A DNA stretch of 64,000 nt from Paracoccaceae bacterium (GTDB taxonomy: Bacteria; Pseudomonadota; Alphaproteobacteria; Rhodobacterales; Rhodobacteraceae), in assembly GCA_026709265.1 (NCBI GenBank), contig JAPOTI010000013.1, positions 1 to 64,000 on the forward strand, in the 5' to 3' direction. This document shows, piece after piece, positions 6,391 through 35,196 of this stretch. Below the pieces are notes generated by a model, which was given only the letters and a program-made list of their open reading frames with translations, was not told the DNA's origin and ran no database searches. Every line of letters begins with the position of its first letter. The first letter of the stretch is position 1. The position numbers were made by a program, and so were the translations under genes.

Positions 6391-6391
6391 T

Positions 6392-12060: not shown

Positions 12061-13416
12061 GTGGTGATATCGCCTCCTGAACAACAGGCAGCGCGGCCGG
12101 GTGTGATCGCCGCACTGCGCGCCCGACTGGGCAAGCGGGTATCCGGCAGGAGCGGTGCCCCCGAACCGGCCGAATCCACCTGGCAACAGACTCGTCTGAA
12201 TCTTCTCAGTCATGCCATCAGACCGGTCAGTTTTGGTGGACAGACCTGCGTTGTCGGTCTGCATTGGCACCATCAGCGGTTCAACCCCGTCGCGGGGCCG
12301 ACATTCGGAGTCAGCTGGCGTGAAGCCCATGCCGGGGCGGATGACCCCGCCTTTGCCGGACTTCCCCCACTCGTGGCGATCGTCGGTCTGGCGGCCGAAG
12401 CCGCTGATCATTCCAAATTCGGTGAGCGGGGTGCAACCGAAGGACGGGTGGCCGTCACGGTGGAGGATTCAGGAGAGAATCTGTGGTGGGCGGCAATGCT
12501 CAGCGAAGGGCAGCCACTGCCGATTGCGGAGTATCTGTTCAACGATCAGTCCGGGCTGATCGCATGGATTGAATCGGAAGCCAGCGAGATCGACCGGATT
12601 ATCACGGGCGGGGATTTCGAACGCGAACTGAATGTCAGCAAACCCCTGTTACGGGTTGACACCCGTGATATCCGACCGACTCTGGACCAACCGGAATTCA
12701 GGCGGCGGGGCGGACCGGTCGCGGTCCGGATGGCGGCGGGCTGTGCGCTGCTCGGGCTGCTCGGTCTGTTGGGCAATTACGTATGGAGTACCGTTGAACG
12801 TGCATCTGTCACCCCGGACGTTCAGTTTGTCCCCTGGGAAATGGAGCTGGAAACATTTGTCCGGGGTTGCGAATCCGCGTTGAGCGGCTTCTGGCCCCGC
12901 CCGCCCGGTTGGGAGATGGATCAGGCCGGCTGTTCAGCAGCCGGTATGCAGGACAATTCTGTTCCACAAGGTCAAATTCCCGGAATTCACGCGGAGCACG
13001 GCATAGCCTATCATCGTTTCCGGCTGATGGCCGGACATAATGCTGTTCTGGCTCGCGCTGCAGCGGAACTGCTTTACGAGACCTGGGACGGGACGGCCGA
13101 GATCCAACCGGAAGAAATCGTCCTGACGCGAACGTTCAGCCTGATAATGAACCCGGTCCTTGGCAGGCGATCACAGGTGATGACCGATGATCTGCTGGAA
13201 GAAGCCGAGCGTCGTTATCTGGGACTCGCAGATGTCACCCTGAGCGACGACGGTGTGCGGCTGACATCGCAGGCTGGACTGGCGTCTCTCATCGTGCGGA
13301 TGCTGGCCATTGACCAGCACATGCCGCTCAGTGTGCGAACCCTGCGGCGCGGGCGGGAGGGGCTCGAGATCGTGATTGAGCCGCGGCGCCAGACGATGCG
13401 GGAAGCCAGTGGATAA
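12061..13416 (+). CDS. bitopic membrane protein, possible PilO-like type IVb pilus accessory protein
   Basis: 451 aa with one central TM segment (VAVRMAAGCALLGLLGLLGNYVWS) between cytoplasmic- and periplasmic-like halves; family assignment tentative. Confidence 0.45.
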   Translation: MVISPPEQQAARPGVIAALRARLGKRVSGRSGAPEPAESTWQQTRLNLLSHAIRPVSFGGQTCVVGLHWHHQRFNPVAGPTFGVSWREAHAGADDPAFAGLPPLVAIVGLAAEAADHSKFGERGATEGRVAVTVEDSGENLWWAAMLSEGQPLPIAEYLFNDQSGLIAWIESEASEIDRIITGGDFERELNVSKPLLRVDTRDIRPTLDQPEFRRRGGPVAVRMAAGCALLGLLGLLGNYVWSTVERASVTPDVQFVPWEMELETFVRGCESALSGFWPRPPGWEMDQAGCSAAGMQDNSVPQGQIPGIHAEHGIAYHRFRLMAGHNAVLARAAAELLYETWDGTAEIQPEEIVLTRTFSLIMNPVLGRRSQVMTDDLLEEAERRYLGLADVTLSDDGVRLTSQAGLASLIVRMLAIDQHMPLSVRTLRRGREGLEIVIEPRRQTMREASG

Positions 13417-13974: not shown

Positions 13975-14385
13975 TCAATCTCTGGAATCGTTCTGCTCAG
14001 CACGGCAGGTCCAGAAACGGTCAGCACGGCGCTGCCAGCGCGGGGGCGGGACGATGCGCATCAAGGCGGGATCCCAGACACCGTGATCTGCCGCGCACAT
14101 GTAACTGGCGGGACGGCACGGCAGGCGCGAGGTGGCCCGGCGCCGGTCGCCAGCGAGTGCGGCACGCACACCGCGCAACGCGGCCGGGATCGAGATCCCG
14201 CGATATTCACACCAACTTGCCAGAATCAGGGCCAGCACGAGGATGACGAAGGTCGTAAGACGGGCATGGACGATGAAGAGTCCGAGAGCCGGGGCAATCC
14301 GCGCATCCCAGAGAAACAATTTTGCCGGTTGCATGGTGGCGCGCCAGTAGAGGCGGCGGCCATAGATATTCCCGTCCTGGGTCAC
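13975..14385 (-). CDS. IcmT/TraK-like T4BSS protein
   Basis: WRATMQPAKLFLWDARIAPALGLFIVHARLTTFVILVLALILASWCEYRGISIPAALRGVRAALAG resembles IcmT (WR...FLxxDARxxxPLLxFLLHxxxWTF...LExxGxxxxxxLRxxRxxLAG); ATGA overlap with the DotB-like gene. Confidence 0.62.
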   Translation of the reverse strand: MTQDGNIYGRRLYWRATMQPAKLFLWDARIAPALGLFIVHARLTTFVILVLALILASWCEYRGISIPAALRGVRAALAGDRRRATSRLPCRPASYMCAADHGVWDPALMRIVPPPRWQRRADRFWTCRAEQNDSRD

Positions 14386-15584
14386 AGATCAAGTTCCAAT
14401 GAAGCGATCTCCTCCTCGCTGACCCGCCCGTCAGCGCGCAGACGGGCAAGGTCACGGCTATAGGGGCGCAACGCGGGATTGCCAGGTTCGGCGGAACTGA
14501 GGAACCGGCGAGAAATGGCAGGCCATTGATCGGGTGGGGAATCGGTGAGTGTGCGCCGCAGATCACCCGCCAGGACGGCCATCTCACGGACCGGATAGCG
14601 GTTCAGGCCGACAGCAGAGCGCAACAGGCGTTGGGCCACACCAACTTTGAAGGTCTGCAGAATATCGACGGCGGCGTTGCGCTCGCCCGACTCGGTGGCC
14701 AGCAGTGCCTGGAATCGACGGAATATTTCCGGAACATCCCCCGCATGAATGGTCGTATAGACCAGGTGGCCGGTCATCGCGGCATCGACGGCGGCACGCG
14801 CCGTCTCCGAGTCCCGGATCTCGCCGATAACCAGGATATCCGGGGCACGGCGGAGCGCCGAACGCACGCCATCCGCGAAGGATTCGATATGGGTGCCGAC
14901 TTCCGATTGGCCGAGTGAGGAACCGCCCCGGGTTGCCGTGTCAATATCGGTGAAGGCAAACTCGATCGGGGCCTGAATATCAACGATCTTCACGCGGCGG
15001 ACGAACTGCTCGCGCAGGATCGCGGCGAGCGTCGTGGACTTGCCCTGCCCTGTGGCACCGGCGACGATCACCATGCCGGACGGCGGCGAAAGCAGCGGCA
15101 GCAAGTCAGGTGGAATCCCGACCTGTTCCAGGGTTGGCGTCTCACGCGGGAGCGCCCGCGCGGTGATCTCGATCCCGGCACCGCCCCGCCGGGCCAGGAT
15201 GCCAGTCGCATTGACGCGGAACCGCTGGGTGACGGAACGGCTGAGCGCAATTGACCAGGAGAAATCAAGGACCTTGCGCCCCGCCAGCAGGGTCGGGGCC
15301 GACGCCGCACCATACAGCGCGATCAGGATCGTCTCCATCTCCGTGGGAGTCAGGGGACGCCGACCTGCGCGGAACTGGCGACCGGCAATTTCACAGCGTG
15401 GTGGCTGGTCGGTCTGCAATGTCACGTCCGAGGCCCCCGCTGTGACCGCATTGACGACGAACTGACGTAGGGCCGCGACGTCATATAAGGGTGGTTCGGG
15501 ATCAAGTGCGGCCCAGTATTCTTGGGTCGTGTCGGGGCGTGGACGGTCCTGGGGTTCGGTCATCATGTTCATGGATCGGTCCAT
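14382..15584 (-). CDS. DotB/TraJ-like secretion ATPase (PilT superfamily)
   Basis: GASDVTLQTDQPP near N-terminus as in DotB; Walker A GATGQGKST; IGEIRDSETARAAVDAAMTGHLVYTTIHAGDVPEIFRRF. Confidence 0.8.
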   Translation of the reverse strand: MDRSMNMMTEPQDRPRPDTTQEYWAALDPEPPLYDVAALRQFVVNAVTAGASDVTLQTDQPPRCEIAGRQFRAGRRPLTPTEMETILIALYGAASAPTLLAGRKVLDFSWSIALSRSVTQRFRVNATGILARRGGAGIEITARALPRETPTLEQVGIPPDLLPLLSPPSGMVIVAGATGQGKSTTLAAILREQFVRRVKIVDIQAPIEFAFTDIDTATRGGSSLGQSEVGTHIESFADGVRSALRRAPDILVIGEIRDSETARAAVDAAMTGHLVYTTIHAGDVPEIFRRFQALLATESGERNAAVDILQTFKVGVAQRLLRSAVGLNRYPVREMAVLAGDLRRTLTDSPPDQWPAISRRFLSSAEPGNPALRPYSRDLARLRADGRVSEEEIASLELDL

Positions 15585-16573: not shown

Positions 16574-18853
16574 ATGGGTGACGTCGTGATTTGCGAGAAA
16601 CCGTCGCAGCGGGCCAATCTGATCCGTGCGCTGGGCCGGGATGTCGGCACTGTAGTGGCCGCTCGGGGACATCTCTATGACCTGAAAGAGCCTCAGGAGG
16701 TCCGGGATGACTGGGCACGATGGGGGTTCGATCTGCTCAATCCCGGGGAACCTTATGCCCTGAAATCCCGCACGGGGCGCGGGCTACAGGAGGTCCGGGG
16801 GCGGATCCGGGACGCTCTCAAACATGCATCGCGCGTCGTGATTGCGACCGACTGTGACCGTGAAGGCCACCTGATCGGCATGGAAATCCTGCAAGCCTGC
16901 GGGTATCACGGCCCCGTTTTGCGGGCCATGTTCAATGCGGAAGATACCGATTCCCTGCGTGTTGCCTGGCAGAATTTGCGCCCGGCTGCCGATTACGCGG
17001 GACTTTTGGCCGCAGGGGAAGCCCGCCGCCAAGCCGATCAAATCGTCAATCTGTCGCTCACACGGGCGATCACCAAACAACTCATGGGGGAGACCCGCGG
17101 GGTGCTCGGGATCGGCCGCGTCAAGACACCAACGCTCGGAATCATCTGCCAACGCGAAGAAGAGATCCGCAATTTCCGGTCGGAGATGCGCTGGGCCATT
17201 CGCGCCGATGTGGCGGGCGGGGCGAATCCCGATTGCGAGTTTATCGCCGAATGCCGGATCCTGCCAGGCGATGCGAAAACACCAATCACACGAAAGGAAC
17301 TGGCGGAACGGATTGCCGCGGCCGCACTGAATTGGCAGGGACCTCTGCGGGTGAATACGAAGCGCAGGACGCAGGGGCCGCCACCACCGTTCGATCTTTC
17401 CGGTCTGCAGAAACATATGGCTGCCCGGTTTGGGTGGCCCGCGAAGATGACTGCGGATACGGCACAGCGCATCTATTCGGATGTGCCGTTGATCACTTAT
17501 CCGCGCGGGGATGCCCGCGCCTTCCCCGAAGCGATGGTCGCGGAGATGGCGGCGATGCGCATCGGCTGCGCCGCAATCCTCGGCGAAGCGACAATCGGTG
17601 CGGGCCAGATTCGCCAAGGGGCGCGGGGCATCTTCTCCGACAAACGGCTCGAAGGGGCTTCCCACCACGCCATCGCGCCGAACCCGAAAACCATCGACGA
17701 ATGGCCCCGCCTGATGGTCGGGCTGGGGGATACCGAGACGCGGCTGGCGCGCGAAGTGATGCGGCGGTTCCTGATGGTCACCGACACCGATTGGGTCTTC
17801 GATGCGCAGGACATCTCCTTTGAGGTGCCGACCGAAGACGGGAATGCGCGATTCCGCGCCCGCGGCAAAACCACGATTGAGACCGGGTGGAAACGCTGGG
17901 GTGGGACTGAGACTGCCGCCAATGATGACCGGGAACCGGACAGGACACGGGAGATCGCTCAGACGCTCCCCGATATCCCGGATGGAAGCCAAGGCACCGT
18001 CACACGGACCGGACTGGCGGAGCGACCGACCCGACCGCCGCCACGTTTCTCAGAGGGTGGCATCCTTGAGGCGATGCGCGATGCCTGGACATTCCTGCCT
18101 GATGGTCCCGAAAAGGATCGCCTCAAGGACGCCGGGGGAATCGGGACGCCTGCCACCCGCGATTCCATAATCGCCGGACTGGTGCGCCAGGGACAGGTGA
18201 AACTGGATGGCAAAGGACGATCCGCCCGCTATATGCCGACGGCGCGGGGCTGGACACTCTGGCAGATCCTCGACCGGCATCTCTGTGAGCTGGTCGATCC
18301 TGGCATGACTGCGATCTGGGAAGCGGAGTTTGATGCGCTCGCACAATCCGACGGAGCCGACTGGTGGGACGTCGTGGAAAAGATCGCCGACCGGGCCGCG
18401 ATGCAGATCATGGTCATCCAGACACTGGAGACGGGATGCATTGGACACGTCGACACAAATCAGGATAGTCAGACACACAACCGCGGCAGACGCCGCACAG
18501 AACCACCCGCATCACAAGCATCAGGGAGGCGCGGAATGAGTGGCGACAACACCAATGACACACGGGACATGACGCCCAGTGCGGGGAAACTCGCTTTCCT
18601 GCACCGCCTGTGCGCCCAGACCGGCACAAGCAAGGATCAACTCAAGGCGGGTTGGGACAGTGATTATCGGATCTGCGGCGATGAGATCGACCGTCTGAAG
18701 ACACTGCCGGGTGGCAATCCACCGACCACGAAACAACTGGCCGCCGCAGAACGGGTGGCGGTGCGACTCGGGATCGACCTGCCGGATGCGGTGCGACAGG
18801 ATTTCACCCAATGCTCACAATTTCTCGACGAGCATTTCCGGAGGGAGGGATGA
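16574..18853 (+). CDS. topB: DNA topoisomerase III (type IA)
   Basis: VVICEKPSQRANLIRALG, IATDCDREGHLIGMEIL, RIYSDVPLITYPRGD, GGIGTPATRDSIIAGLVRQG; C-terminal PTTKQLAAAERVAVRLGIDLPDAVRQDFTQCSQFLDEHF. Confidence 0.92.
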   Translation: MGDVVICEKPSQRANLIRALGRDVGTVVAARGHLYDLKEPQEVRDDWARWGFDLLNPGEPYALKSRTGRGLQEVRGRIRDALKHASRVVIATDCDREGHLIGMEILQACGYHGPVLRAMFNAEDTDSLRVAWQNLRPAADYAGLLAAGEARRQADQIVNLSLTRAITKQLMGETRGVLGIGRVKTPTLGIICQREEEIRNFRSEMRWAIRADVAGGANPDCEFIAECRILPGDAKTPITRKELAERIAAAALNWQGPLRVNTKRRTQGPPPPFDLSGLQKHMAARFGWPAKMTADTAQRIYSDVPLITYPRGDARAFPEAMVAEMAAMRIGCAAILGEATIGAGQIRQGARGIFSDKRLEGASHHAIAPNPKTIDEWPRLMVGLGDTETRLAREVMRRFLMVTDTDWVFDAQDISFEVPTEDGNARFRARGKTTIETGWKRWGGTETAANDDREPDRTREIAQTLPDIPDGSQGTVTRTGLAERPTRPPPRFSEGGILEAMRDAWTFLPDGPEKDRLKDAGGIGTPATRDSIIAGLVRQGQVKLDGKGRSARYMPTARGWTLWQILDRHLCELVDPGMTAIWEAEFDALAQSDGADWWDVVEKIADRAAMQIMVIQTLETGCIGHVDTNQDSQTHNRGRRRTEPPASQASGRRGMSGDNTNDTRDMTPSAGKLAFLHRLCAQTGTSKDQLKAGWDSDYRICGDEIDRLKTLPGGNPPTTKQLAAAERVAVRLGIDLPDAVRQDFTQCSQFLDEHFRREG

Positions 18854-20880
18854 TCTCGATGATACGGGTGTCCCAGACAACAGCCGCAGGTCTGGCGTTG
18901 CTACTCACCGGCTGCGGGCCCTTCGGCCCGGGCGGCGATTTCACCGAGGAACGCGCCCGGACCGGCGAACGGGTCGATGCCGTGGCCGAGATCGCCCGAA
19001 CGCAACCGGTAGCTGCCCCGGTCAGGCGCTCCGGCAAACCCCATTACGGGAGTGAAGATGCCAGTCTGAAACCACGCACAGACGCGCATCCCAACGGATA
19101 TCCCCTGCCCGCACGACTGCAACAGCGGGACGCCATCGCGGTAACCATCGCGGCCCAACAACCGATCCGTGAGACCGCCAACGTGATCGCAGCCGCCTCC
19201 GGACTGCCGGTGACCGTGATCGACACCCTCACCGCGCCTGACGGTGAGACCCTGGTCGTACCGATCAAAGGCGGGCGACCCATCACCCATGACGGGGCGC
19301 TGGCCGCCCTGCTCGACCGGGTCGCTGGCGAATACAATCTCTTCTGGCGGTTCGACGGACGCCAGATCGTCCTTTCTTCCGTGCGCACCCGGGGCTGGAC
19401 CATCCCGCTCCCCGCCGGATCAGCGACGCTCGCCGCTTCCTCTGGCGGACTGTCAGGCGGGGGGCAGGACCGATCGGTCACGATGTCCACCTCCGCCGAA
19501 CAGGATCCCTGGATCGGTCTGCAGGTCGAACTGGAAGCCTCCGTGCGCCCGCCGGCCACCGTCACGGTGATCCGCGAATCCGGACGGGTGCTGGTGACCG
19601 GACGCCCCTCTGACCTCGAATCGGCCGGGCGGATCGCCGCCGCCTGGACCGAGCTCTACACCCAGCGGATCACCATGGAGATCGGCATCTACGAGATCGA
19701 TGCTTCAAGATCCTCCGAATTTGAACTCGGACTGAAAATGCGCAACGCCTCGGTCGAGGACATGCGGGCGGAACGCGACCATGTCCGGGCGCAGGCGACC
19801 GGGGCGCGCAGCGCGAAGGAAGCCGAAGCCACACAAACCGAACTGGCCGGCCGGGCCGCGCGGACGACCAAGGAAGACGAGGCAAGACTCGTCGCCGCGA
19901 AAGGAGAGGCCGAGGCGGCACAAATCCGGGCGGAATCCGTGGCGGCGTCAAACAAGGCCCGGGATGACACCCGTAAAGCTGTCGCGGATGCGGAAATCAA
20001 GGTCAGGGAAGCTGCGGCCAAACTTGCGGGAGCCACCACCGAACAGCGGGCCCAGGCCCTGGCCGACAAAGTGAGGGCCGATGCCGAACTTGTGGCGGCA
20101 CGACAGGAAGACGTTCGGGCCCAGGCGGCAGCCGGGACAGTCTCGGATGTCGCTGAACAGCGTGCGGAAGCCGCCATCAATGAAGGCTCCCTCGAAGCCG
20201 CCAAGTTACGCAATGAGGGACGGGCGGCATTGGCGGAAGCCACGCGGGCGGCGGCTGTCCTGCGCGGTGACGGGGCATCGGCAGAAGCGGAGATCCTGCG
20301 CAACGAATTGGCACCCGCCGTCGCGGTCAATCTGCCCGGCGCGGGCGAAGCCTCGATCATCGATGTGATTTCCGGGCGACGATTGCAGCTCGACCTGAAA
20401 GCCCTCGCCGACAATTCCTCTGTCCTGGCCTATCGGACCGCACGGACCGCCGTGCAATCCGGCGTGCCCGCCCCGATCATCCTGACCCGCCAGCACGATT
20501 TCCTGGCGGGGCGCGAAACCACGGAGGAAGGTGGTGTCAGCGAGTCACGGGAATCCGTGGATTCGGGCCTGTCCCTGCACCTGCTGCCGCGGCTCGTGCC
20601 GACCGGAAGCAGCCATGATGTGCAGCTCAGCCTCAACTTGATGCAGAACAACCTGATCGCGATCAATGCGTGCGGGACGATCGAATGCCCGCAGACCGAA
20701 AGCCGCATGATCTCCTCGCAGCTGCTGCTCAAGCCCGGGGAGACGCTGGTCCTCTCGGGCTACGAACAGGACCGGGTCCAGACCGGGGGCGGCAGCGGCC
20801 TCCTCTATACCGGTCGGAAGGGTGAGAGCAATCGCACCGCCCTCGTGGTCATCGTGCGCGTCGGGCTGACGGCGGCGTGA
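18850..20880 (+). CDS. pilN: PilN-like type IVb pilus secretin (lipoprotein)
   Basis: Lipobox LLLTGC; secretin features VTVIRESGRVLVTGRPSDLESAGRIAAAWTELYTQRITMEIGIYEID and C-terminal SSQLLLKPGETLVLSGYEQDRV; ATGA overlap with topB. Confidence 0.75.
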   Translation: MISMIRVSQTTAAGLALLLTGCGPFGPGGDFTEERARTGERVDAVAEIARTQPVAAPVRRSGKPHYGSEDASLKPRTDAHPNGYPLPARLQQRDAIAVTIAAQQPIRETANVIAAASGLPVTVIDTLTAPDGETLVVPIKGGRPITHDGALAALLDRVAGEYNLFWRFDGRQIVLSSVRTRGWTIPLPAGSATLAASSGGLSGGGQDRSVTMSTSAEQDPWIGLQVELEASVRPPATVTVIRESGRVLVTGRPSDLESAGRIAAAWTELYTQRITMEIGIYEIDASRSSEFELGLKMRNASVEDMRAERDHVRAQATGARSAKEAEATQTELAGRAARTTKEDEARLVAAKGEAEAAQIRAESVAASNKARDDTRKAVADAEIKVREAAAKLAGATTEQRAQALADKVRADAELVAARQEDVRAQAAAGTVSDVAEQRAEAAINEGSLEAAKLRNEGRAALAEATRAAAVLRGDGASAEAEILRNELAPAVAVNLPGAGEASIIDVISGRRLQLDLKALADNSSVLAYRTARTAVQSGVPAPIILTRQHDFLAGRETTEEGGVSESRESVDSGLSLHLLPRLVPTGSSHDVQLSLNLMQNNLIAINACGTIECPQTESRMISSQLLLKPGETLVLSGYEQDRVQTGGGSGLLYTGRKGESNRTALVVIVRVGLTAA

Positions 20881-23224: not shown

Positions 23225-23671
23225 ATGCCGGACACGGAGCGCCTGCGGAGTCATTCAATGGCACGTCCCTCCATGAGACGCGGACATGCAAGTCTGGCCG
23301 GGGTGGGACTGGCACTGGCCCTGCTCCTCACCCCGCCGAACCCGCCTGTTGCCCGGGCGGACACGATCACCCCTCTCACGCATGAGACACGCCGGGGCGC
23401 CGATGCAGCCGAACGCCAGGCGGTGTCCGATCCGGATTTCCTGGGGACCGCACGGGGCGGTGTCTGGTCGTGGGGACAGATGCGGATCGTGATCGCCGAG
23501 GACGCCCTCAATTGCGGCTGGCGGGGCGAGGTCTGCCCTTTCGTGCTCCTCGCACCTGATGGGCAGATCCGGGTGCGGGGCACTGCCCGGATGCGCCCGT
23601 GGATCGCCGGGGCGACCCTGCGCTGGATCGGGGCCGACGGCACGGTGCAGATCGCGGCCCCGCGTGAATGA
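23225..23671 (+). CDS. putative periplasmic protein
   Basis: N-terminal signal-like stretch (LAGVGLALALLLTPPNPPVARA) and two Cys in the mature region. Confidence 0.5.
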   Translation: MPDTERLRSHSMARPSMRRGHASLAGVGLALALLLTPPNPPVARADTITPLTHETRRGADAAERQAVSDPDFLGTARGGVWSWGQMRIVIAEDALNCGWRGEVCPFVLLAPDGQIRVRGTARMRPWIAGATLRWIGADGTVQIAAPRE

Positions 23672-23813
23672 CATGACCCGATTTGTGTGTGTGGCATCAG
23701 TTTCAGGACAGATCTCGCACGCAGCTTTCTGCGTAGCGAGGCAAATCACCGATGACATTGCCGCGCCCTTATGCTACATATCATCCACACAATCACACCA
23801 GGCGAATTCACCA

Positions 23814-24077
23814 ATGTCACATCCGAATCCGGCGGCCCGTGCCGCCGCCGACAGCAAACTCCAGGCGCTCAGGAATCTGGGCGCAGGACCCGGAAAATCC
23901 GCGGATTACACGCAGGGCTGGGACGACGCCGTCACCGTCTTTTCCACCGTGCTGCTGGAGATCAAGTTCAACAAGACGAAGCGCCCCAGCGCCATGCAGC
24001 GCCTGCGGCACCTCTCCGCCCGCTCCCGCCAGCGACAGGCCGACCGTGCGGCACACGCAGCGGAGAGCATCGGCTGA
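23814..24077 (+). CDS. small hypothetical protein
   Basis: MSHPNPAARAAADSKLQALRNLG...; in-frame ATG at 23814. Confidence 0.42.
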   Translation: MSHPNPAARAAADSKLQALRNLGAGPGKSADYTQGWDDAVTVFSTVLLEIKFNKTKRPSAMQRLRHLSARSRQRQADRAAHAAESIG

Positions 24078-24091
24078 CACGGTGTCTGACG

Positions 24092-24304
24092 ATGCTACCT
24101 GACAGATCAGGCGCACCCCCGATACGGCCGGTGGCCCCCGCGGGCGAGAGAACCTGTCGTGTCTGTGGCTGCTGGGAGTTCGTGGCCTGCTGGGACGACA
24201 CGCTCGGGGGCCTGCTGGTAGGTCGCACCCGACCTGTGTGCGCATTGCGCCGCCGCGATGCCGGATATGCAACCCCGTGCCTGAGCCGCAAGAAGGGCCG
24301 ATGA
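24092..24304 (+). CDS. small Cys-rich protein, possible zinc-binding
   Basis: RTCRVCGCWEFVACWDDT...PVCALRRRDAGYATPC. Confidence 0.38.
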   Translation: MLPDRSGAPPIRPVAPAGERTCRVCGCWEFVACWDDTLGGLLVGRTRPVCALRRRDAGYATPCLSRKKGR

Positions 24305-24337
24305 GCCTCCTCCGTGCCCTGTCATAGGTCACCCTCC

Positions 24338-25915
24338 ATGATCTGCCGACTTGTCCCGCTGGGCGGGGTCAGGGAGGCCCTGACAAGCTTTTCCGAAGTG
24401 CCTTCCGGCGCGGGATGGCGAACCGGATCTCCATCTGCCACATCGCGTCATCATTCCGTTTGTTCTCCCCAACTTCGTGGTGTTGGCGGTCCGGCACGCC
24501 GCCGCCGCGGTCTCAGCCTGCTGGCGGCCGCCATTGCCACTTCCATCCTGGCCCTCCTGGCCGCTGAATGGGCGGATCTGCAACGCCGGTCCCAGGACCG
24601 GATCGCTGCCGAGGCCCTCGGACAGGAACTCGCAGCACGGGCACGGGTCTTCGATGCCTGGCTCAACGCGGATGAGCAGGATCGATCCTTTTCCACAGGT
24701 CCAGGCCCTGGCCGAATCCCCTGGTTCCGGCCAACCTCCCGACCGGAGACAATCCCGCCCACACCCCGCGAGCAGGCCATCGTAGCCATTCCCGCCCCCG
24801 ATTTTCTTGACATGATGGATGGGGTGGCCGAACCCTGGACGAACAATAGCCGGCCGCGGCTCCGGGTGTGGGACGACCCGCTCGCGGCGACCATCCCCGG
24901 CGACTGGGTCCTGCGCTACGTGGTGGGTTGGCCGGACGGGGCGGATGCGTCCCGACCCGGTGCCGGCCCGCCGCACGGGGTGATCGTGGCAACTCCGGAC
25001 TCCAGTCTGGAGACCGGAGAGATTCTGCGCGTGCGCCGTTCCGTTCTCCGCCGCGGCGGGGGTCCCGGCGTACGTGCTGGTCGGGTCCCCAATAATGATC
25101 TGGCGGCGACCCTGGCCCGCGCCGGATCCATTGGTCCGATCAACGCCCATACGATCTTCATTCCGAGCTGGCAGTTCGCTGATATTCCACGCTGGCTGGC
25201 CTTGCGCCGGCCACGGGCCGGTTTCCCGCCGCCCGGGACCGATTTCGGTCTGGGGTTCGGGGGCACGGCCACCGCGACAGGGGCAGAAGCCCAGGGTCTC
25301 GAATCCCGCGGTGCGCGGATCGGTGGTGCCGTAACGATCGGCAGCATCCCCGGTGCCGAGCCACAATGGACCGATCCGGGCAACCCCCGGTTGCCCACTG
25401 TCTTTGCCGAAACAACCCCGTTCAGCACGCTGAACGGGCAGGATTGCGCTGACTGTGGCACGATTACCGCCAATGAGATCATCCTGCGCGGTGATGCCCG
25501 TTTTGCCAATGCCAGTGCAGGTGGTGGAATCGATGGCGAGCGCGTCTCTGTTGACGGCAGCGTGACCACGTCCCGGCTGCAGGCCGGAACGATGCGGGTG
25601 GACGGAACCTGGACCGGTACCTCTCTCAATGCCGAGACAATGGATGTCGGTGGGACAGCCATCATCAGCGGGACGCTCGCGATCGGTGAGCGTGCCGGTG
25701 TCACCGGATCCCGGGCCACATTCAGCGAACTTGATTCCGGTCGGATTGGGATCAACGGACAGCTGACCGTGCAGGACACCCCTGACGAGATCGGGCTGTT
25801 CTCTTCGGACGAGACCTCTGCCGCTGCCCTGACAGTCACCGGCCCCGATGCGCGCTGTATCGGCTGTGTCCCCCCGCCCCTCCAACCCGGTGATCCCGGA
25901 TACGTCCCACCGTGA
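24338..25915 (+). CDS. prepilin-like repeat protein A (PilV-like minor pilin/adhesin)
   Basis: RRRRG|LSLLAAAIATSILALLAAEWADLQRRS prepilin-like segment (no Glu5); beta-repeat-like C-terminal half; ends DARCIGCVPPPLQPGDPGYVPP. Start uncertain. Confidence 0.62.
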   Translation: MICRLVPLGGVREALTSFSEVPSGAGWRTGSPSATSRHHSVCSPQLRGVGGPARRRRGLSLLAAAIATSILALLAAEWADLQRRSQDRIAAEALGQELAARARVFDAWLNADEQDRSFSTGPGPGRIPWFRPTSRPETIPPTPREQAIVAIPAPDFLDMMDGVAEPWTNNSRPRLRVWDDPLAATIPGDWVLRYVVGWPDGADASRPGAGPPHGVIVATPDSSLETGEILRVRRSVLRRGGGPGVRAGRVPNNDLAATLARAGSIGPINAHTIFIPSWQFADIPRWLALRRPRAGFPPPGTDFGLGFGGTATATGAEAQGLESRGARIGGAVTIGSIPGAEPQWTDPGNPRLPTVFAETTPFSTLNGQDCADCGTITANEIILRGDARFANASAGGGIDGERVSVDGSVTTSRLQAGTMRVDGTWTGTSLNAETMDVGGTAIISGTLAIGERAGVTGSRATFSELDSGRIGINGQLTVQDTPDEIGLFSSDETSAAALTVTGPDARCIGCVPPPLQPGDPGYVPP

Positions 25916-27330
25916 GGATGCACAGGCACCGAGACGGGCGGGGACGCGGAATGCGCCGACAGCGGCGCGGCCTGACACTGGTCGAGGCCGTCGTGACCAT
26001 CATGCTGTCAGCCATCGCCGTGCTGGTGCTCACAACACTCGTCGATTCCGTGAGCCGTACCACCATTCTCCAGAGCGAAGCCCGTGCGCTCTCGCGTGCC
26101 GCTGATGATGCAGTGCGAGCCGCACGATCTGATCTTGATGCCCATATCGCTGCAGCGCAAGGATCTGTTATCCGCATCGGGGCTGGTGACATCACCGGTC
26201 TCACGCCGTCGCTCCTGACAGACAGCACGCCGGTCACCGCCACCACACCCTATGGACACACGATTCAATTTGCCCATTTCGCGCCCGATCCCGACACGCT
26301 GCTGGTGCTGACCTGGACGACCGAAACGCTGGCGGGTGTCCAGGGAATCGCCATACCCCGCGTGCGTCCGGGAGGCGGGATCCGCCGGGTCGGTCGCGCC
26401 GGTGGGATCACCGCAGATCTGCGCTGTCCGGCAGATCACTGGTGCGGTGTCGGAATCAACTGGGACACGGCCCGTTTCACCGCGGCGGCGGGGACGCTGG
26501 CTCCGGCGGCCGGGGCACTGGTGGCAATACGCGACATTTCACTGGCGCGCGAACCGACGCAACTCCTGTGGCGCACTCGCAATGCACCACGTCATCTGTC
26601 GCGCATGGACACCGTGATGCAGGTGAGTGGCACGATCGTCAATGTCGATCAGGTGGTGGCACCCCGGACCATCGCCGGAATCGGGACCCTGACGATCACC
26701 CCGGCGATTCCCCCGGGATCGCCTGCGGGGACGGCGGCGCAGGGTAATCTGACCACCGCATCATTGACCGTGGGACAGGATCTGACCGTCGGAGGCGATC
26801 TGGATGGTGCCGGCCAGATCATCGGCGCCGGGACGGCAATCGGCACCGAGGATTTCGGTTTCGGGTTTTTTGACATCGCCGGCGATGCCGGTTTTTCCAC
26901 CGCCCGCATCCGGTCGCTCGACTCGGTGCCTGTGGGCGGAAATGTCCACGTGACGGGCAATGTCAACTTCGACACCACCGACGTCCGTGAAGGGCATGGC
27001 GGGACCTTGGCGGCCCGCGCAGGAACAGGGCAGAATCTGGGTCAGGTGAAGACCGATGCCGGCGGACCCAGCCTCCGACAGGTGACGGCAGCGTCCGTGC
27101 AAGCCGATCATACCGCCATCCGCAAGGGTTGTGCCGGTGACCTCGCGGATCCACGTGATGCCGATTCCGCCTGCACCCACATGAGCGGTGCCCAGGCGAT
27201 CATCCGCGGTGATGCCGCCGCAGCGCAACTGGCGACCCATGACGCTGACATCTCAGGTGGAATCACCGTGAATGGCTGGATGTTCGTCAATGAATGGTGC
27301 AACGGCTGTGCAGCACCGTCCACACCGTGA
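25912..27330 (+). CDS. prepilin-like repeat protein B (type IV pilin-like N-terminus)
   Basis: RRQRRG|LTLVEAVVTIMLSAIAVLVLTTLVDSVSR (Glu5 present); CPADHWCG; ends NEWCNGCAAPSTP; GTGA overlap with A. Confidence 0.68.
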   Translation: MRMHRHRDGRGRGMRRQRRGLTLVEAVVTIMLSAIAVLVLTTLVDSVSRTTILQSEARALSRAADDAVRAARSDLDAHIAAAQGSVIRIGAGDITGLTPSLLTDSTPVTATTPYGHTIQFAHFAPDPDTLLVLTWTTETLAGVQGIAIPRVRPGGGIRRVGRAGGITADLRCPADHWCGVGINWDTARFTAAAGTLAPAAGALVAIRDISLAREPTQLLWRTRNAPRHLSRMDTVMQVSGTIVNVDQVVAPRTIAGIGTLTITPAIPPGSPAGTAAQGNLTTASLTVGQDLTVGGDLDGAGQIIGAGTAIGTEDFGFGFFDIAGDAGFSTARIRSLDSVPVGGNVHVTGNVNFDTTDVREGHGGTLAARAGTGQNLGQVKTDAGGPSLRQVTAASVQADHTAIRKGCAGDLADPRDADSACTHMSGAQAIIRGDAAAAQLATHDADISGGITVNGWMFVNEWCNGCAAPSTP

Positions 27331-27337
27331 GAACGCT

Positions 27338-28819
27338 ATGACTCTTAAGCTGCAGCCATCCCTGATGATGCCCCGTTGGCGACGGGATCTGTGGGCCCGG
27401 TTCCTGCAACACTGGCGGGCCGTCCGGGAACCGCCGCTCCGGACACCGCCGCGTCGCTCGCGGTGCGGTTTGACCCTGTTTGAGGCCGCGGTCACACTGG
27501 CCCTCGCGGCGGCGACCGGAGCGTCGGTGATGGAGGTTGCCCGCCAGTGGGCGGAACAGGAAAATGTTGCCAATGAGGTTCACGCGCTGGCCGATGCGGT
27601 CGAACTGGCAGCGTCCCATGCCCGGGGAGACCTGACGCGCTTTCTCTGCCAGACTCATGCCGGCAGCCAGGGCGGGGCGATTGCATTCGATGTGAATGCC
27701 CTCGACAATTTTGACGATGTCGGCCGAACCCTGACCCAGATCCGGGGTGGCACAATCCGGTTTGCCCTGTATCGGCCCAGCGACAATGCTGCTGATGGGC
27801 GGTTGCTGGTGGTCGCCTGGGCCGCACCGACACCCGGACTGGACAGTTATACCCTGCCGGTGCCGCAGACCCGTGCGCATGTCGGGCGCCGCGGCGGTGT
27901 CGGCCAACCCTGTGCAGCAAACCATCTGTGTGGACCCACGATGAACTGGGACGCGTCGAACATGTTCACCATGCTGGGCACATTGCCCAGCCCGCCCGCC
28001 GTGGGATCCCTGGTGGCCGTGCGTCAGCTCAGTTTCGAGGCGGACCGCGATCCGTTCCTGCACCGGGTCAGACTGACGGAAACCGCGTCCTGGTTGTCCG
28101 CTGCACCCACCGCCTGTTCCACCGGCAGCGCGGCGCATCTGGCCCAGCGCGCCGCGGCCGATGCGATGAACCGGGTGATCGGCGACTTTGATCTTGGCGG
28201 CGGGAATCTGGGCAATCCGGATGCGGTAACGCCTGCAGTGCAAATGCCGACGCGGCTGCTGGTCAATCGGTTCGATGTCAACGGACATGTTGTCTCGGAC
28301 GGAGATCTCGCACCGGAATCGGTCCAACTGGCCGGGACTGTCACGGCGAGCGGCTCCGTGACCTCCACCACATCAATTATCGGACAGGGTCTGGATGACA
28401 CCACATCGCCGCCCACGCCGATCCGCTCGAGCGGGAGATTTGACGTCACCGGCAACCTGACTGCAGGCGGCGCGTTGCGCAGCCACGTGTTGGCGACCGG
28501 AACGCTGGTGCAGACCGGCGGAACCGGTGGTGTGATCAATGTCGGAGATCTCAGTGTTGGAGATGACATGACCATTGCCGGCCCTATTGCGATCGTCCCG
28601 CCAGCCGGGAGCACCAATCGCGCTCATGGCACCTTTTCCGCGGGCCAGGTGCAGGCACAGACCCTGTCGCTGCCGCCCGGTACGGAGTTTCGCACGGGTG
28701 CTGGCTGGGAGACCGATCTCGGTTCCTATCACTTGACCAATTCCGGAACTTTTGGAAACCCCGATGGTTTTCATATCGGTGGCGATCTCACCGTGAACAC
28801 CCCCTGCGTCGGATGCTGA
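27338..28819 (+). CDS. prepilin-like repeat protein C (type IV pilin-like N-terminus)
   Basis: SRCG|LTLFEAAVTLALAAATGASVMEVARQWAEQ (Glu5 present); CAANHLCG aligned with B; Gly/Val/Thr repeats; ends NTPCVGC. Confidence 0.68.
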   Translation: MTLKLQPSLMMPRWRRDLWARFLQHWRAVREPPLRTPPRRSRCGLTLFEAAVTLALAAATGASVMEVARQWAEQENVANEVHALADAVELAASHARGDLTRFLCQTHAGSQGGAIAFDVNALDNFDDVGRTLTQIRGGTIRFALYRPSDNAADGRLLVVAWAAPTPGLDSYTLPVPQTRAHVGRRGGVGQPCAANHLCGPTMNWDASNMFTMLGTLPSPPAVGSLVAVRQLSFEADRDPFLHRVRLTETASWLSAAPTACSTGSAAHLAQRAAADAMNRVIGDFDLGGGNLGNPDAVTPAVQMPTRLLVNRFDVNGHVVSDGDLAPESVQLAGTVTASGSVTSTTSIIGQGLDDTTSPPTPIRSSGRFDVTGNLTAGGALRSHVLATGTLVQTGGTGGVINVGDLSVGDDMTIAGPIAIVPPAGSTNRAHGTFSAGQVQAQTLSLPPGTEFRTGAGWETDLGSYHLTNSGTFGNPDGFHIGGDLTVNTPCVGC

Positions 28820-28875
28820 CGCACAGCCACGCGTCGCCGCCCAATCGCAGACACGGATCAACGAAAGGTTTCATC

Positions 28876-29811
28876 ATGATTGAGAACCGAAAAGAACACC
28901 GGGCAGGGCTGATGGACTGGGCTCTGTCGCTCACGATGATGATGACCGTGGGCCTGTCGGATCCCGGTCTGGCACAGACCAGAAACGATCCGATCCATCA
29001 GGTGATTGGTGAGATGACCACAATCCTTGAGCGCCAGGCCGGGCGAACCCTGCCGGCAGCCGCCGCCTTGATGCTCTCAGGGCACGTGGACGTGGTGATC
29101 CGGCCCGATTCCAACCAGGTCTGGCTGGTGGGAACAGATGATGCCATCGTCGATGTGGGTGAACTGCGTGTGCGGGAGCGCCGCAACAATGCTGATCTGA
29201 TGGTCTCCTGGGAGACGCACGGTCACCGTGTGGTGCCGCCCGATGTCTTGCTCTCACTGCTGCGTGAAGGGACATTCGGAGACACCCATCCCGCCTATCT
29301 CTGTCAACTCCAGGTGGCCGCGGGCGGTATGCTGCGGACAGCGGTCGGCGCAATTCCCGCCGGGGCCTTGATCGGCAACGGCGCGGTCACCCATGATGGC
29401 CAGTTGCTGGCGCTGTTTGCCGGATCTGGCGATCAGTTGCGATTCATGGATTCGGACGGGAATGATATGCGGCTCGGCGCGGCAGGAAACCCACATCTTC
29501 CCTGCGCAATGGTGGCTGCCGAACTTGGCGGAACCGGGCCGGTGATGGCCGCGTTGCGCGCCGAGAAACTGGTAAATCTGCGCACTGCCCTTCTGGATGG
29601 CAATGCGGCATTGCGGCGCACTGCCGGGTATCAGGACCGCCTCAAGCGACTCGCCGCGGACGATCCTGCGGCGGCGCTGCGGGCACGGCTCAGTCTGGCT
29701 GAATGTCTGAACACCCCGACCCTCTCGATCCTCTGCGATCGACTGCCAGCCACCTTTTCCGATGAGAGTGGCCGCACCATTATTCCTGACAATGAGGAAA
29801 CCCGACAATGA
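28876..29811 (+). CDS. putative exported protein
   Basis: Signal-like MDWALSLTMMMTVGLSDPGLAQ; overlaps next gene by ATGA. Confidence 0.6.
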   Translation: MIENRKEHRAGLMDWALSLTMMMTVGLSDPGLAQTRNDPIHQVIGEMTTILERQAGRTLPAAAALMLSGHVDVVIRPDSNQVWLVGTDDAIVDVGELRVRERRNNADLMVSWETHGHRVVPPDVLLSLLREGTFGDTHPAYLCQLQVAAGGMLRTAVGAIPAGALIGNGAVTHDGQLLALFAGSGDQLRFMDSDGNDMRLGAAGNPHLPCAMVAAELGGTGPVMAALRAEKLVNLRTALLDGNAALRRTAGYQDRLKRLAADDPAAALRARLSLAECLNTPTLSILCDRLPATFSDESGRTIIPDNEETRQ

Positions 29812-31127
29812 CGAACACAGAGACAAACGGTATCACATTGCATGTCACCCGGGGGCAGTTGCTGGCGGGCGGGTGCGTCGCGAGCGCGGTCGTGGTCCTC
29901 GCCCTCGGCTTGTGGTCTCAGGGATCAGATCCCCCGTTCCCTCCACCGACATATCGACCGCCGGTGGCAGCGGCTGAAACGGGACCCGCTCCTGATCGAC
30001 CGAACCGTGCGCCAATTCCGTCTCTGGAATCCGATAATGTGGCCGTAACATTCATCTCAACCGAGACCCCGAAAATGGAGATTGAGCGCAAGAGATTTGA
30101 CGAAGGAAAACGGATCGCCCGTGAAGCCGGGGCACAGGCGACCGTGTCACTGCTGCAGGCGATGCAGACGCGCGATGACCCCGACTGGGCGCAGATGGCC
30201 GGGATGGGCACCGCACTGGCGGAGATTGTCCAGAACGTCTCCGGTTTACCGGTGGTGACTGCGGCGCTGGCGGCGATGCCATTGGCATCGCCCGCCTCCT
30301 CATGCGCTTCTGTGGCACTGTGGCCCGGATCCTTGTCTCCTGAGTCGGTGAAGCCAACATCGGCAGCGGCCACGACCGCACAGACCACCAGCCGGGATGC
30401 CGCACTGTCGGTGCCTGATACACCTTCCCGTGTTCCACCGGGGATCGTCCGGTTCGCCGAACGGGAGACTCCACCTGCTGCGGTCACAGCCGTTGCCATT
30501 CCGCCCCCGCCGGACGGGTTGCAGGATCGCCTGTCACAAGTCGCCGACCAGACATTCTGGGTACGCCTCGGAGACGTCGGGGTCCCGGCCCTGGTCATGT
30601 TTGCCGATCCCGGTTGTCCGCATTGTGCGGCAGCTCTGGACAGATTGTCCGGACCGATTCTGTCCGGACAGCTGCAGATCAGGCTCGCCCTCGCGCCCTT
30701 CCTGAGCGAACATTCCTGGGATCTCGCCGCCGAGATCCTGCTGGCCGCGGATCCTGCAGGACATGCCTGGAACATGATGTTGACCCAGGCACGCGGGACA
30801 CCGCGCCTGGCCATTCCCGGAACCGGGGCGGCCATTGGCGCACTGGGTGGCGCACTGCTGGATGCCAATCTCGACTGGATGCGGCACATGACAATCTCGG
30901 CGGTGCCGCATTTTGTCTGGCAGGACAAGGATGGAGTCTGGCACCAGGCGAGCGGGGTGCAGCCGATCACGACATTTGCCAATGCCGCCGTTTTGGGCGG
31001 CGATCTCGGGATGCACGCACCGGCTGCGGTGCTCGAGATGGTGGATCTCGAGGCACTGGGTCTGACGGAGGTTGCCGATACCGAGAATGCCCAGGCTGCA
31101 GCGACACATTCGGGAGATGACGGGTGA
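29808..31127 (+). CDS. membrane-anchored DsbC/DsbG-like thioredoxin-fold protein (TrbB-like)
   Basis: N-terminal TM LLAGGCVASAVVVLALGLWS; VPALVMFADPGCPHCAAALDRLSGPILSGQLQIRLALAPFLSEHSWDLAAEIL. Confidence 0.7.
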   Translation: MTNTETNGITLHVTRGQLLAGGCVASAVVVLALGLWSQGSDPPFPPPTYRPPVAAAETGPAPDRPNRAPIPSLESDNVAVTFISTETPKMEIERKRFDEGKRIAREAGAQATVSLLQAMQTRDDPDWAQMAGMGTALAEIVQNVSGLPVVTAALAAMPLASPASSCASVALWPGSLSPESVKPTSAAATTAQTTSRDAALSVPDTPSRVPPGIVRFAERETPPAAVTAVAIPPPPDGLQDRLSQVADQTFWVRLGDVGVPALVMFADPGCPHCAAALDRLSGPILSGQLQIRLALAPFLSEHSWDLAAEILLAADPAGHAWNMMLTQARGTPRLAIPGTGAAIGALGGALLDANLDWMRHMTISAVPHFVWQDKDGVWHQASGVQPITTFANAAVLGGDLGMHAPAAVLEMVDLEALGLTEVADTENAQAAATHSGDDG

Positions 31128-31855
31128 GGATAAGCCCGCTCATCATTCCACTCCTGACCGGGTGGCTGCTGGGCGGAGCGGCAGAAGCTGCAGGCAGCCG
31201 ATGCGGCAGCTTTGCGGGCGACATCGTCAGCCATGAGGTCGGTGGATGTGGTTGGTCGGAGAATTGTTATCACCGCCCGTCCACCTCATCTGCCCAGGGA
31301 TGTTTTGGCATGACCCATGCCGCTCTGGTTGATGTCGGTCTCAAATATCGCAATGGACACTGGCGTCCCAACCGGTGGGAGATCACCTCGGATCAGGAAT
31401 TCCAGTCCAATTGGGCGGCACAGAAACATGCGTTTCGTCAATATACAGCATTGAACTGGCAGCGACTGGAACCGGTGCGGGGGTTGGTCGGTCAGGAGAT
31501 CAATGGTGTGCGGATCACCGAAGGCGGTTTGCTAAGTGCCGCGCATTTCCTCGGGCCTGGCGGTGTACGACAGCTCGCCGATTGCGGATTTCGACCCGAT
31601 TGTATTTCCGATGACGCCGCGGCGGCGAATGGCGGTCACGACACAACCTTCCAGATTACCATGAACCGCCTGGCGCAGGGAAGCAACCAAAATGCCGGTC
31701 TGTATGCCGGTGTGCAGACAACGGGCGGTGGCGGCCAATTCACTGGTACGGGTAATGCCGGTCCGACTGTTCCCACGTCGGCCTTTCTGCAATGGAACGC
31801 ACAGGCGACCCATGAAATGCCACCACTCCAGGGCGAGCGGCAACAACTGCGATGA
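31124..31855 (+). CDS. secreted protein resembling phage/VirB1-type peptidoglycan lytic enzymes
   Basis: Signal-like N-terminus; QEFQSNWAAQKHAFRQYTALNW...GVRITEGGLLSAAHFLGPGGVRQL; six Cys within the first ~55 residues of the mature protein plus two later. Confidence 0.5.
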   Translation: MRISPLIIPLLTGWLLGGAAEAAGSRCGSFAGDIVSHEVGGCGWSENCYHRPSTSSAQGCFGMTHAALVDVGLKYRNGHWRPNRWEITSDQEFQSNWAAQKHAFRQYTALNWQRLEPVRGLVGQEINGVRITEGGLLSAAHFLGPGGVRQLADCGFRPDCISDDAAAANGGHDTTFQITMNRLAQGSNQNAGLYAGVQTTGGGGQFTGTGNAGPTVPTSAFLQWNAQATHEMPPLQGERQQLR

Positions 31856-32216
31856 TAGTTGTGGGTCAGACAGGTTGCTGGATTTCCAGTCAGAGTCAGG
31901 ATTTTTAATCAACGCATTCTGTTTTTGTGATCGCGTCCCGCGTGGATCACCAATGAGCCCCCGCGGTTTTGTGCGATGGGCTAGAGATCATCGACAATCA
32001 GCAGACCCAGCTGCTGCGGTCACTGCAAACGCCTGACCCGCATCACAGGCTGTGCGATTGTCAGGACGGTCGGCGTGTCCTTCCAGAGGGCCAATGCGGT
32101 GAGTGACTTTCATCCGTTCCGCACCAACTCTCCATGAAAACCTGATTTGGTTCACCAAACAGCATAACACAGCTTTCCAGGATGGATTCTGCTGTGGATT
32201 CGAGTTCAATTCCCAT

Positions 32217-32317: not shown

Positions 32318-32350
32318 CGGGACGGGACATGAGACGCGAAGGAGGATACC

Positions 32351-33619
32351 ATGTCATCAAATGACGGAAAACTGACGGATACTATCGTGCATGGCATCGT
32401 TGGTCCTGGGAAATTCTATGATGGAACCAACGGATTGTATCTGCGAGTCGCCGCCACTGGTGCGCGCCAATGGGTACAGCGAATTGCAATCAGGGGCAAA
32501 ACCCGTGAACTGGGTCTTGGTGGCTATCCTGTGGTCACGCTGAGAGAGGCCCGAGTCCAGGCGCTCGCCAACCGTCGTCTGGCCCGGGCGGGCGGTGATC
32601 CAACGGAAACGCCGTGGCCGGTCCAAGTGGCGGATCTGACGGAACTGTTGAGCCGCGGGCAACTGAAAACCGCACCTGTACCCGACGAACCCGATACAAA
32701 CGTTCCAGACACGAACGTTCCGACGTTTGCACAAGCGGCGGAAACGGCAATCGCGCTGAAGAGTTCAAGATGGAAAAACGGAGGAAAGTCAGCCGCGCAA
32801 TGGCACGCCTCGCTGAGGCAATATGCATTTCCGACGATCGGTGACGTTCGGGTTGACAAGATTACCACGCAGGAAATCGTGGATCTCCTCCATCCGATCT
32901 GGTCCAGTAAACATGAAACAGCATCGCGTGTGAAACAACGTATATCAGTGGTGATGGACTGGGCCAAAGCCAGTGGATTCCGGGCCGATAATCCAGCAAC
33001 TATAGCGGATTCGCTGCTGCCCAACATCCGTCGCAACGCGGTGCATTTCCCGGCTCTTCCCTATCGCAACGTCAGGGACGCCGTCCAGAAAGTGCTGCGC
33101 TCCAATGCATCCCAGAGTGTGCGGCTGGCGTTCGGTTTTCTGGTTCTGACCGCCTGCCGCTCCGGTGAAATCCGTGGCGCGACCCATCATGAGATCGACT
33201 GGGATCAGAATATCTGGACAATCCCCGCCGCACGCACAAAAACCAGCCGCGTTCATCGGGTGCCCTTGTCGGATGGGGCGCGATACATTCTGGATGTGTC
33301 ACGCGGGGGTTTACCGGGCAAGGGATTGCTCTTTCCGATGAGGACCGGGCGACCGATGTCAGATTCAACCCTGTCAAAATTGACGCGCTCACTGGGCATT
33401 GCCTCAGTGCCTCACGGGTTTCGATCCAGCTTTCGTGACTGGGCCGCCGAAGAAGCCCAGGCCCCGCGGGAAGTTGCCGAAATATCTCTGGGGCATGAAA
33501 CTTATTCCCGCGTCGAAGCCGCCTATGCGCGGTCGGATTTGCTTGAAAGACGACGGGAACTGATGCAAGAATGGTGTGATTATCTTCAACTGAATCGTCC
33601 CGATGAAGCCCTCCGATGA
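32351..33619 (+). CDS. tyrosine recombinase/integrase (P4-type, DUF4102 N-terminus)
   Basis: GLYLRVAATGARQWVQRIAIRGKTRELGLGGYPVVTLREARVQA; catalytic segments LTACRSGEIRGA, PHGFRSSFRDWAAE, LGHETYSRVEAAYAR. Confidence 0.93.
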   Translation: MSSNDGKLTDTIVHGIVGPGKFYDGTNGLYLRVAATGARQWVQRIAIRGKTRELGLGGYPVVTLREARVQALANRRLARAGGDPTETPWPVQVADLTELLSRGQLKTAPVPDEPDTNVPDTNVPTFAQAAETAIALKSSRWKNGGKSAAQWHASLRQYAFPTIGDVRVDKITTQEIVDLLHPIWSSKHETASRVKQRISVVMDWAKASGFRADNPATIADSLLPNIRRNAVHFPALPYRNVRDAVQKVLRSNASQSVRLAFGFLVLTACRSGEIRGATHHEIDWDQNIWTIPAARTKTSRVHRVPLSDGARYILDVSRGGLPGKGLLFPMRTGRPMSDSTLSKLTRSLGIASVPHGFRSSFRDWAAEEAQAPREVAEISLGHETYSRVEAAYARSDLLERRRELMQEWCDYLQLNRPDEALR

Positions 33620-33858: not shown

Positions 33859-35196
33859 TCAGAACTTGCGGCTTTCGGGGGCGACCGGCAGGATCGACTC
33901 GCGTTTCTTCGCGATCCGCCAGCGGATCGCATCGATGCCGTCCCGGAGCGTGGCCGGCGATGCCGTCCCCTCAGCCCAGCGGCTGGTCAGTGCCCGCAAG
34001 GCCCCGCCGACGCTGCGAATGGGGTTGGTGGCGCGATGGCGGTTTCGATCCAGCATGAGCAATGCGATAAAGGCGTTGCGCAACCCCATGCGTTGGGCCG
34101 CCGCCAGCCAGATGGTGTCCTGAATCCGCAACCGACCCGCCAAGAGAAGCGCCGTCGCTTCCATCGCCGCGGCCCCGCTGTGCCCGTATTCCGCGGCCTG
34201 GGCTGCCGCCGCCTGCCAGTCGGCGGTGCCGATCTCGTCCGCCAGCGCGACAACATCGCCCGTCACCGCCCCCGTGTCCCTGTTTTCCGGGGTGTTTTGT
34301 GTGTTTTGCTTGCCTGTCCCCGGGGTTGGCGGGGTGGCGTCCCCTACGTATCCCTCTACGTTGTTAGAGTCTTTACTTACTCTACCACGTTGTAACTCAA
34401 GGTCGGACATTTTGTCCGACCCGCCGGACAAATCATCCGTCCATTCGCTCTCAGGGAGCCCGTTTTCCAGCGCATCTGGGGTGAATCCGTGCAGATTCCC
34501 GACCGCCGTGAGCAGGGTTTCAAAGAACGAGACGGCGGTGCGCATTTTGGTCCAGTTGGCCACCGTGCCAAGCGTGCCGGCCATGATCCGTTTCAGGATC
34601 GTCTGAATGTCGATGATGGTGGTGAGATGTTCAGTGGCCGCCGCGACACCGGCAGCCACGGCGTCCACCAGGGCGCGGCGTAACTGTGACAATTCCCGCC
34701 GCAATTCCCGGACGAGGCGCTGTGCGGTGTATGTCTGCTCGTGATGCGCCTCCACCGCCGCGGCAATCTGGCTGAAATGGGCCAGGACCGGACCGAGGCT
34801 GATGCCATGGATAGCTCCGTCGGCACAGCGGCCGACAAACCCGTTGAGCCCCTGACGCCGCTCAATCAAACCGTCCTCGGAAAATCGGGTGAGGGCCCGG
34901 GTGACCGTGCGCGTGTTCACCGTCGCTTCCCGCGCGATCATCGACAGTTTGAGCCAGCAGGCCGGGTCGGGCGAATCGTGTGATTCCCAACTGCCACTTT
35001 TGTGACTGAATTCACAAAGCAGGCGAAAAATTTTGATTTCGGCTTCCGAATATTTGAGGAGTCGCAGCCACGACAAAATGATTTTCAAGGCCTGTCTGAA
35101 GCTCATATCCGAAGGCAATGCCCTCAGACCCCCCTGCTGGAGATTGAGTGTCGCACCGAAATGATTCGATGGACGAACTTCGGCTGTCGTGTTCAT
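33859..35196 (-). CDS. RepC-like plasmid replication protein
   Basis: N-terminal wHTH-like WLRLLKYSEAEIKIFRLLCEFSHKSGSWESHDSPDPACWLKLSMIAREATVNTRTVTRALTRFSEDGLIERR; C-terminal LRNAFIALLMLDRNRHRATNPIRSVGGALRALTSRW. Confidence 0.78.
   Translation of the reverse strand: MNTTAEVRPSNHFGATLNLQQGGLRALPSDMSFRQALKIILSWLRLLKYSEAEIKIFRLLCEFSHKSGSWESHDSPDPACWLKLSMIAREATVNTRTVTRALTRFSEDGLIERRQGLNGFVGRCADGAIHGISLGPVLAHFSQIAAAVEAHHEQTYTAQRLVRELRRELSQLRRALVDAVAAGVAAATEHLTTIIDIQTILKRIMAGTLGTVANWTKMRTAVSFFETLLTAVGNLHGFTPDALENGLPESEWTDDLSGGSDKMSDLELQRGRVSKDSNNVEGYVGDATPPTPGTGKQNTQNTPENRDTGAVTGDVVALADEIGTADWQAAAAQAAEYGHSGAAAMEATALLLAGRLRIQDTIWLAAAQRMGLRNAFIALLMLDRNRHRATNPIRSVGGALRALTSRWAEGTASPATLRDGIDAIRWRIAKKRESILPVAPESRKF

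Follow-up and report, generated by a model that had tools for sequence, protein, structure and literature searches.

Tandem PilV-type minor pilins sharing a C-terminal CxGC tag on an integrase-bearing element of a Paracoccaceae bacterium

Introduction

PilV, which corresponds to the Pfam family Shufflon_N (PF04917), is the tip adhesin of the thin pili of IncI-type plasmids (R64, TP114). At the pilus tip, TcpB and related proteins assemble as trimers, to which a secreted partner binds (PMC9565799). In type II secretion, GspK is the only one of GspHIJK that lacks Glu5, and it is located at the tip of the pseudopilus; likewise, one minor pilin without Glu5 is present in most T2S and T4a systems and in BFP (PMC5207764).

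Here we describe a locus within a stretch of 64,000 nucleotides from a Paracoccaceae bacterium (contig JAPOTI010000013.1; hereafter the window), in which the tandem genes A, B and C are followed by a gene for a secreted protein, D. The locus and its relatives resemble PilV systems in their homologous pilin domain with the junction motif NRM..DLdM.G, in the position of the genes behind PilS in a PilP-Q-R-S operon, and in their linkage to conjugation genes. However, they contain two or three tandem genes in place of the single one, have no shufflon, and encode proteins without a recognised C-terminal adhesin domain. Similar to the TcpB/CofB systems, a large type IVb minor pilin and a secreted protein are encoded in one operon, although TcpB and CofB are single proteins with Glu5 and an H-type lectin-like domain, and D is comparable to TcpF and CofJ only as a secreted protein from the operon of the pilin. 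With GspK and PilX, the apex minor pilins of T2SS and T4aP, A shares the lack of Glu5 but no significant homology, A being a PilV-type paralogue of B with a repeat stalk and a CxGC end.

Results

The presence of three tandem prepilin-headed genes with a terminal CxGC, as given in a preliminary description of this DNA, was confirmed (Table 1). Protein A begins with the cleavage-like head RRRRG/LSLLA, which lacks Glu5, and continues through a pilin-like domain and a repeat region to CIGC and 15 further residues. B starts with RRQRRG/LTLVE (Glu5), followed by a repeat region and CNGC plus 6 residues, while C has the head RRSRCG/LTLFE (Glu5) and terminates directly at CVGC. B and C align with 33% identity over about 210 residues including CPADHWCG and CAANHLCG, respectively, whereas the alignment of A and B is found at the profile level only (98.4% probability, 220 columns, E 9e-15).

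Table 1. Positions of the genes, tags and element features in the window.
Feature	Position	Strand	Basis or remarks
Probable PilO	12061..13416	+	tblastn E 5e-16 to L031 ORF between secretin and PilP; name from gene order
DotB/TraJ-like ATPase	14382..15584	-	TIGR02524 E 2.4e-67
PilN-like type IVb secretin	18811..20880	+	TIGR02520 E 1.2e-13; Pfam Secretin; 34-40% identity to L031 secretin
Gene A	24314..25915	+	ORF; homologues at nine loci; profile homology to B-type
Gene A, alternative start	ATG 24338	+	
Tag CIGC of A	25856..25867	+	TGT ATC GGC TGT; without embedded start codon
Gene B	25912..27330	+	ORF; profile match to PilV; start GTG 25912, alternative ATG 25918
Tag CNGC of B	27298..27309	+	TGC AAC GGC TGT; without embedded start codon
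Gene C	27272..28819	+	ORF; paralogue of B; alternative ATG 27338
Tag CVGC-stop of C	28805..28819	+	TGC GTC GGA TGC TGA; ATG of gene D embedded at 28813
Gene D	28813..29811	+	Secreted protein with conserved C-terminal domain, C-x9-C; homologues in ten loci
DsbG/DsbC-like thiol-disulphide protein (CPHC)	29808..31127	+	NCBIfam DsbG model E 1.8e-13; kept in G014 block
Tyrosine integrase of element	32351..33619	+	Pfam Arm-DNA-bind_3, Phage_int_M, Phage_integrase; shufflase role only putative
RepC-like replication protein	33859..35196	-	NF040974 E 4.8e-20, below cut-off; present in G014

The relatives' loci were retrieved by profile searches of whole genomes, which gave ten related loci including the window, from Rhodobacteraceae and one other alphaproteobacterial family. 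Other genera of the same family contributed L005 (G014), L006 (G104), L053 (G1017) and L054 (G029); L023 and L024 are from Ruegeria atlantica (G487), L050 and L051 from another genome of that genus (G897), and L085 (G785) belongs to a different family within the class. A tblastn search of PLSDB with window B and C as queries returned no match, and a scan of genome contigs for PilQ found only two Ruegeria loci, both already known. Most loci have the gene order PilP, PilQ, PilR, PilS, A, B, D, with PilS adjoining A/B in the type IVb pilus operons of the relatives and not in the window. The order A-B-C-D is confined to the window and L005, the other loci having A-B-D. Downstream of D, a PilU-like prepilin peptidase is encoded in the Ruegeria loci and VirB11-/VirB9-like genes in several loci. 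The A/B/C proteins are mostly only 20-50% identical. The B gene of the second locus in the Ruegeria genome G897 (L051, 5585-6663) is broken by a frameshift or an assembly error, with its CSGC end intact.

Comparison of the B-type proteins with the PilV profile gave a probability of 99.5% (E 1.8e-22, 234 columns), and tblastn connected them to an annotated PilV (E 2e-9). The Pfam Shufflon_N cut-off was passed by B of L053 (30.3 bits versus 27.5), single-sequence hmmscan found no Shufflon_N match in window B and C, and the Pfam N_methyl match of window B stayed below threshold (20.7 bits versus 21.2). Judged by this homology, B and C are PilV-family minor pilins and A is a distant paralogue of B, in agreement with the pilin type proposed in the preliminary description. 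The absence of a shufflon, which had also been suggested, was borne out as well, since a search of 23500-33700 revealed no family of inverted sites of the kind seen in shufflons; a shufflon-diversified PilV was therefore rejected as a candidate.

The two classes differ in residue 5 of the mature chain, which is acidic in 11 of 12 B/C proteins, with B of L085 as the exception, and in none of the nine A proteins. Like GspK, A has a non-acidic residue 5 and is the one such protein per operon; a PilX_N match, a weak one (E 0.017), was obtained for A of L051 only. The best reading of this residue, together with operon logic, is that A would be the apex subunit and B/C the subunits beneath it.

The second feature that unites these proteins is their end. 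CxGC occurs at the C-terminus or at most 15 residues from it in 18 of the 21 A/B/C proteins from the ten loci (A 8/9, B 9/10, C 1/2), with I, Y, A, R, D, T, N, Q, S or V as the variable residue, and in 11 of the 19 tabulated proteins the mature chain, as predicted, has no cysteines other than these two. In a set of 904 six-frame ORFs from 17 loci, each 100 aa or longer, CxGC falls within the last 20 residues of 17, of which 16 are A/B/C proteins and one is out of frame; beyond this count, the tag is present in another two A/B proteins, from a further locus. In the window's own genome the DNA pattern TGYNNNGGNTGYTRR occurred 43 times versus 35 for the control, a near-control level which makes counting at the DNA level uninformative and the protein-level count the relevant one. 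None of the eight canonical PilV or PilV-like proteins checked has a CxGC end (canonical PilV of Bosea (two), Methylorubrum, Stutzerimonas, Hydrogenophaga and Methylovorus; PilV-like proteins of Flagellatimonas and Alteromonas). The proposal of a shared, conserved C-terminal tag thus held for the large majority of homologues, and as a strict rule it failed in three: B of L006 and C of L005, both of which have no cysteine near their ends, and A of L054, which has two C-terminal cysteines spaced C-x12-C. Since B of L054 keeps CxGC, strict pairing of the tags of A and B is not required everywhere. At 28805-28819 of the window, GGATGY provides both tag and start codon, and equivalent junctions are present in L005, L023, L024, L050, L051, L053, L054 and L085.

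In AF2 predictions (four sequences), the pilin domain of a Ruegeria B-type protein was fair, with block means mostly of 64-87 over residues 21-200, and its repeat region was strand-rich at low confidence; window B was modeled poorly (pLDDT 42.8). Foldseek found no significant fold match in the PDB, bactofilins, which are beta-helices, being among the best non-significant matches, and a sequence search of the PDB returned only a bactofilin (E 0.15). A beta-solenoid second half is plausible from these low-confidence strands and weak bactofilin matches.

At each of the ten loci, gene D lies directly behind the final pilin gene (in L005 at 5873-6736, and likewise in L006, L023, L024, L050, L051, L053, L054 and L085). 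The D protein carries a hydrophobic segment at its N-terminus, taken by eye for a signal peptide, and its C-terminal domain, roughly 60 residues long, contains C-x(8-9)-C; the library searches made assigned the protein to no family. The DsbC-like gene expected nearby by the preliminary description is present immediately downstream as a DsbG-like gene. Between this gene and the integrase, 31124-31855 encodes a secreted Cys-rich protein of 243 aa, possibly a cell-wall hydrolase, for which Pfam, NCBIfam and the PDB gave no credible match.

The block A-B-C-D-DsbG-integrase-RepC is common to the window and G014, and topoisomerase III is also encoded in the window. The window yielded no PilP, PilQ, PilR or PilS, and the partner pilus is therefore assumed to be encoded elsewhere. 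In both the window's genome (G000) and G014 a pil operon without PilV exists elsewhere; in G000 this second operon (L028, G000:C36:1-20000) comprises PilN, PilP, PilQ, PilR and PilS. The genes behind the operon on C36 resemble those of an I-type (Dot/Tra-like) secretion system.

Discussion

Our analysis suggests, with about even chances in our estimation, that A, B and C form a fixed heteromeric tip, derived from PilV, of a conjugative type IVb pilus, whose ends are closed or stapled by distal CxGC disulphides. The tip would be carried by an integrative element, with A, lacking Glu5 like GspK of type II secretion, at the apex and the Glu5-bearing B and C below it, each chain running from the pilin domain through the repeat stalk to the CxGC end. 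In the oxidising periplasm the cysteines would be joined either within a chain, capping the stalk, or between chains, stapling neighbouring ends, and this closure may replace the swappable adhesin domain of the shufflon PilV. D is a candidate for a partner that is bound to the tip or takes part in its assembly. The most economical prediction for the function of CxGC is such a disulphide-based cap or staple. The more specific variant, a covalent heteromer in which the distal ends of A and B (or C) are stapled by inter-chain CxGC disulphides in a cystine-knot-like manner, with D clamped or clamping, seems unlikely.

The tag could instead be a docking site, by mixed disulphide or by shape, for D or another secreted adhesin, and not a clamp between pilins. 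This reading, which we regard as unlikely, would fit the invariable position of D behind the last pilin gene and its own conserved cysteine pair, and has a precedent in the secreted TcpF and CofJ, which are carried by TcpB and CofB (PMC9565799). However, the cysteines of D are retained at L006 despite the loss of CxGC from B, indicating that CxGC and D are not strictly coupled, and the C-x(8-9)-C of D may be merely an internal disulphide. A metal-binding or redox-active CXXC site at the pilus tip would agree with the spacing of the cysteines and with the 11 proteins that have no other cysteine to pair with, but neither a conserved His nor another ligand is found nearby and the position is extracellular, which makes this function very improbable. 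A sorting signal was rejected as unlikely, as neither a transmembrane segment nor a basic tail lies behind CxGC, and the processing signal that had been considered earlier is unlikely on the same grounds, with nothing hydrophobic or basic following the tag. It is improbable, too, that the three proteins represent a frozen shufflon, in which each would be a fixed and redundant variant for receptor binding. The three tandem genes with divergent distal halves, the paralogy of B and C and the lack of shufflon sites would be in line with such an origin, but A constitutes a separate class without Glu5, and the divergent halves share the same end and contain no recognisable adhesin domain. Moreover, every one of the nine loci in which A is visible has B as well, which suggests distinct roles. 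The earlier view of three fixed variants of one adhesin is consequently not upheld, since only C is a paralogue of B and most loci contain A and B alone.

A further explanation, quite improbable in our judgment, is that CxGC arose mainly as a by-product of gene overlap, GGATGYTGA supplying the ATG of the next gene so that translational coupling forces Gly-Cys-stop. Fourteen of the 18 tags indeed use GGA TGY with the embedded ATG of the next gene, although GGA accounts for only 120 of the 582 Gly codons in these genes. However, the first Cys lies outside the coupling ATG and is nevertheless present in 18 of 18 tags, the stop follows two codons past the tag in L005 A, L053 A and L054 B, and four tags (window A, window B, L053 B and L085 A), with GGC or GGT for Gly, are kept without an embedded ATG. 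The latter rule out overlap as the whole cause and, together with the position of the first Cys, indicate that selection is likely to act at least partly on the protein. The overlap with the next gene is thus likely an added constraint on top of protein-level selection, and GGATGY serving as both protein tag and start codon represents a clear case of overlapping constraint.

If A, B and C do form a heteromeric tip, their arrangement bears on what keeps several minor pilins joined at a type IV pilus tip and on recipient choice by conjugative pili that have no shufflon. Although the PilV family itself is known, we found in the families and papers searched no description of two tip-pilin classes sharing one C-terminal cysteine tag, and our literature searches found none of a terminal CxGC in minor pilins. 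Two PilV-type subunit classes with the same four-residue cysteine tag make a compact natural system, and since the tag often contains the only cysteines, covalent tip assembly is accessible to a small number of point mutations.

In contrast to the IncI plasmid with which the locus had initially been compared, the carrier is an alphaproteobacterial element with an integrase and RepC. The pil operons without PilV in the two genomes, G000 and G014, may provide the partner machinery for the tip proteins of the window. The RepC-like gene is located next to the integrase and a tRNA-Ser, and in G014 the integrase is likewise followed by RepC, a combination that suggests an element between a plasmid and an integrative element. 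Just upstream of the integrase, the 14-base sequence CGGGAATCGAACCG is directly repeated at 32217-32230 and 32304-32317. It resembles the complement of a tRNA T-arm and may mark attachment sites; it is absent from the tRNA-Ser at 35234, and this tRNA beside RepC is not supported as the attachment site. The element also encodes a Strawberry-notch-type helicase and a PcfJ-like protein (2590-6390 and 7854-10100), and a similar helicase is found beside the pil genes of a Methylorubrum extorquens megaplasmid (L035).
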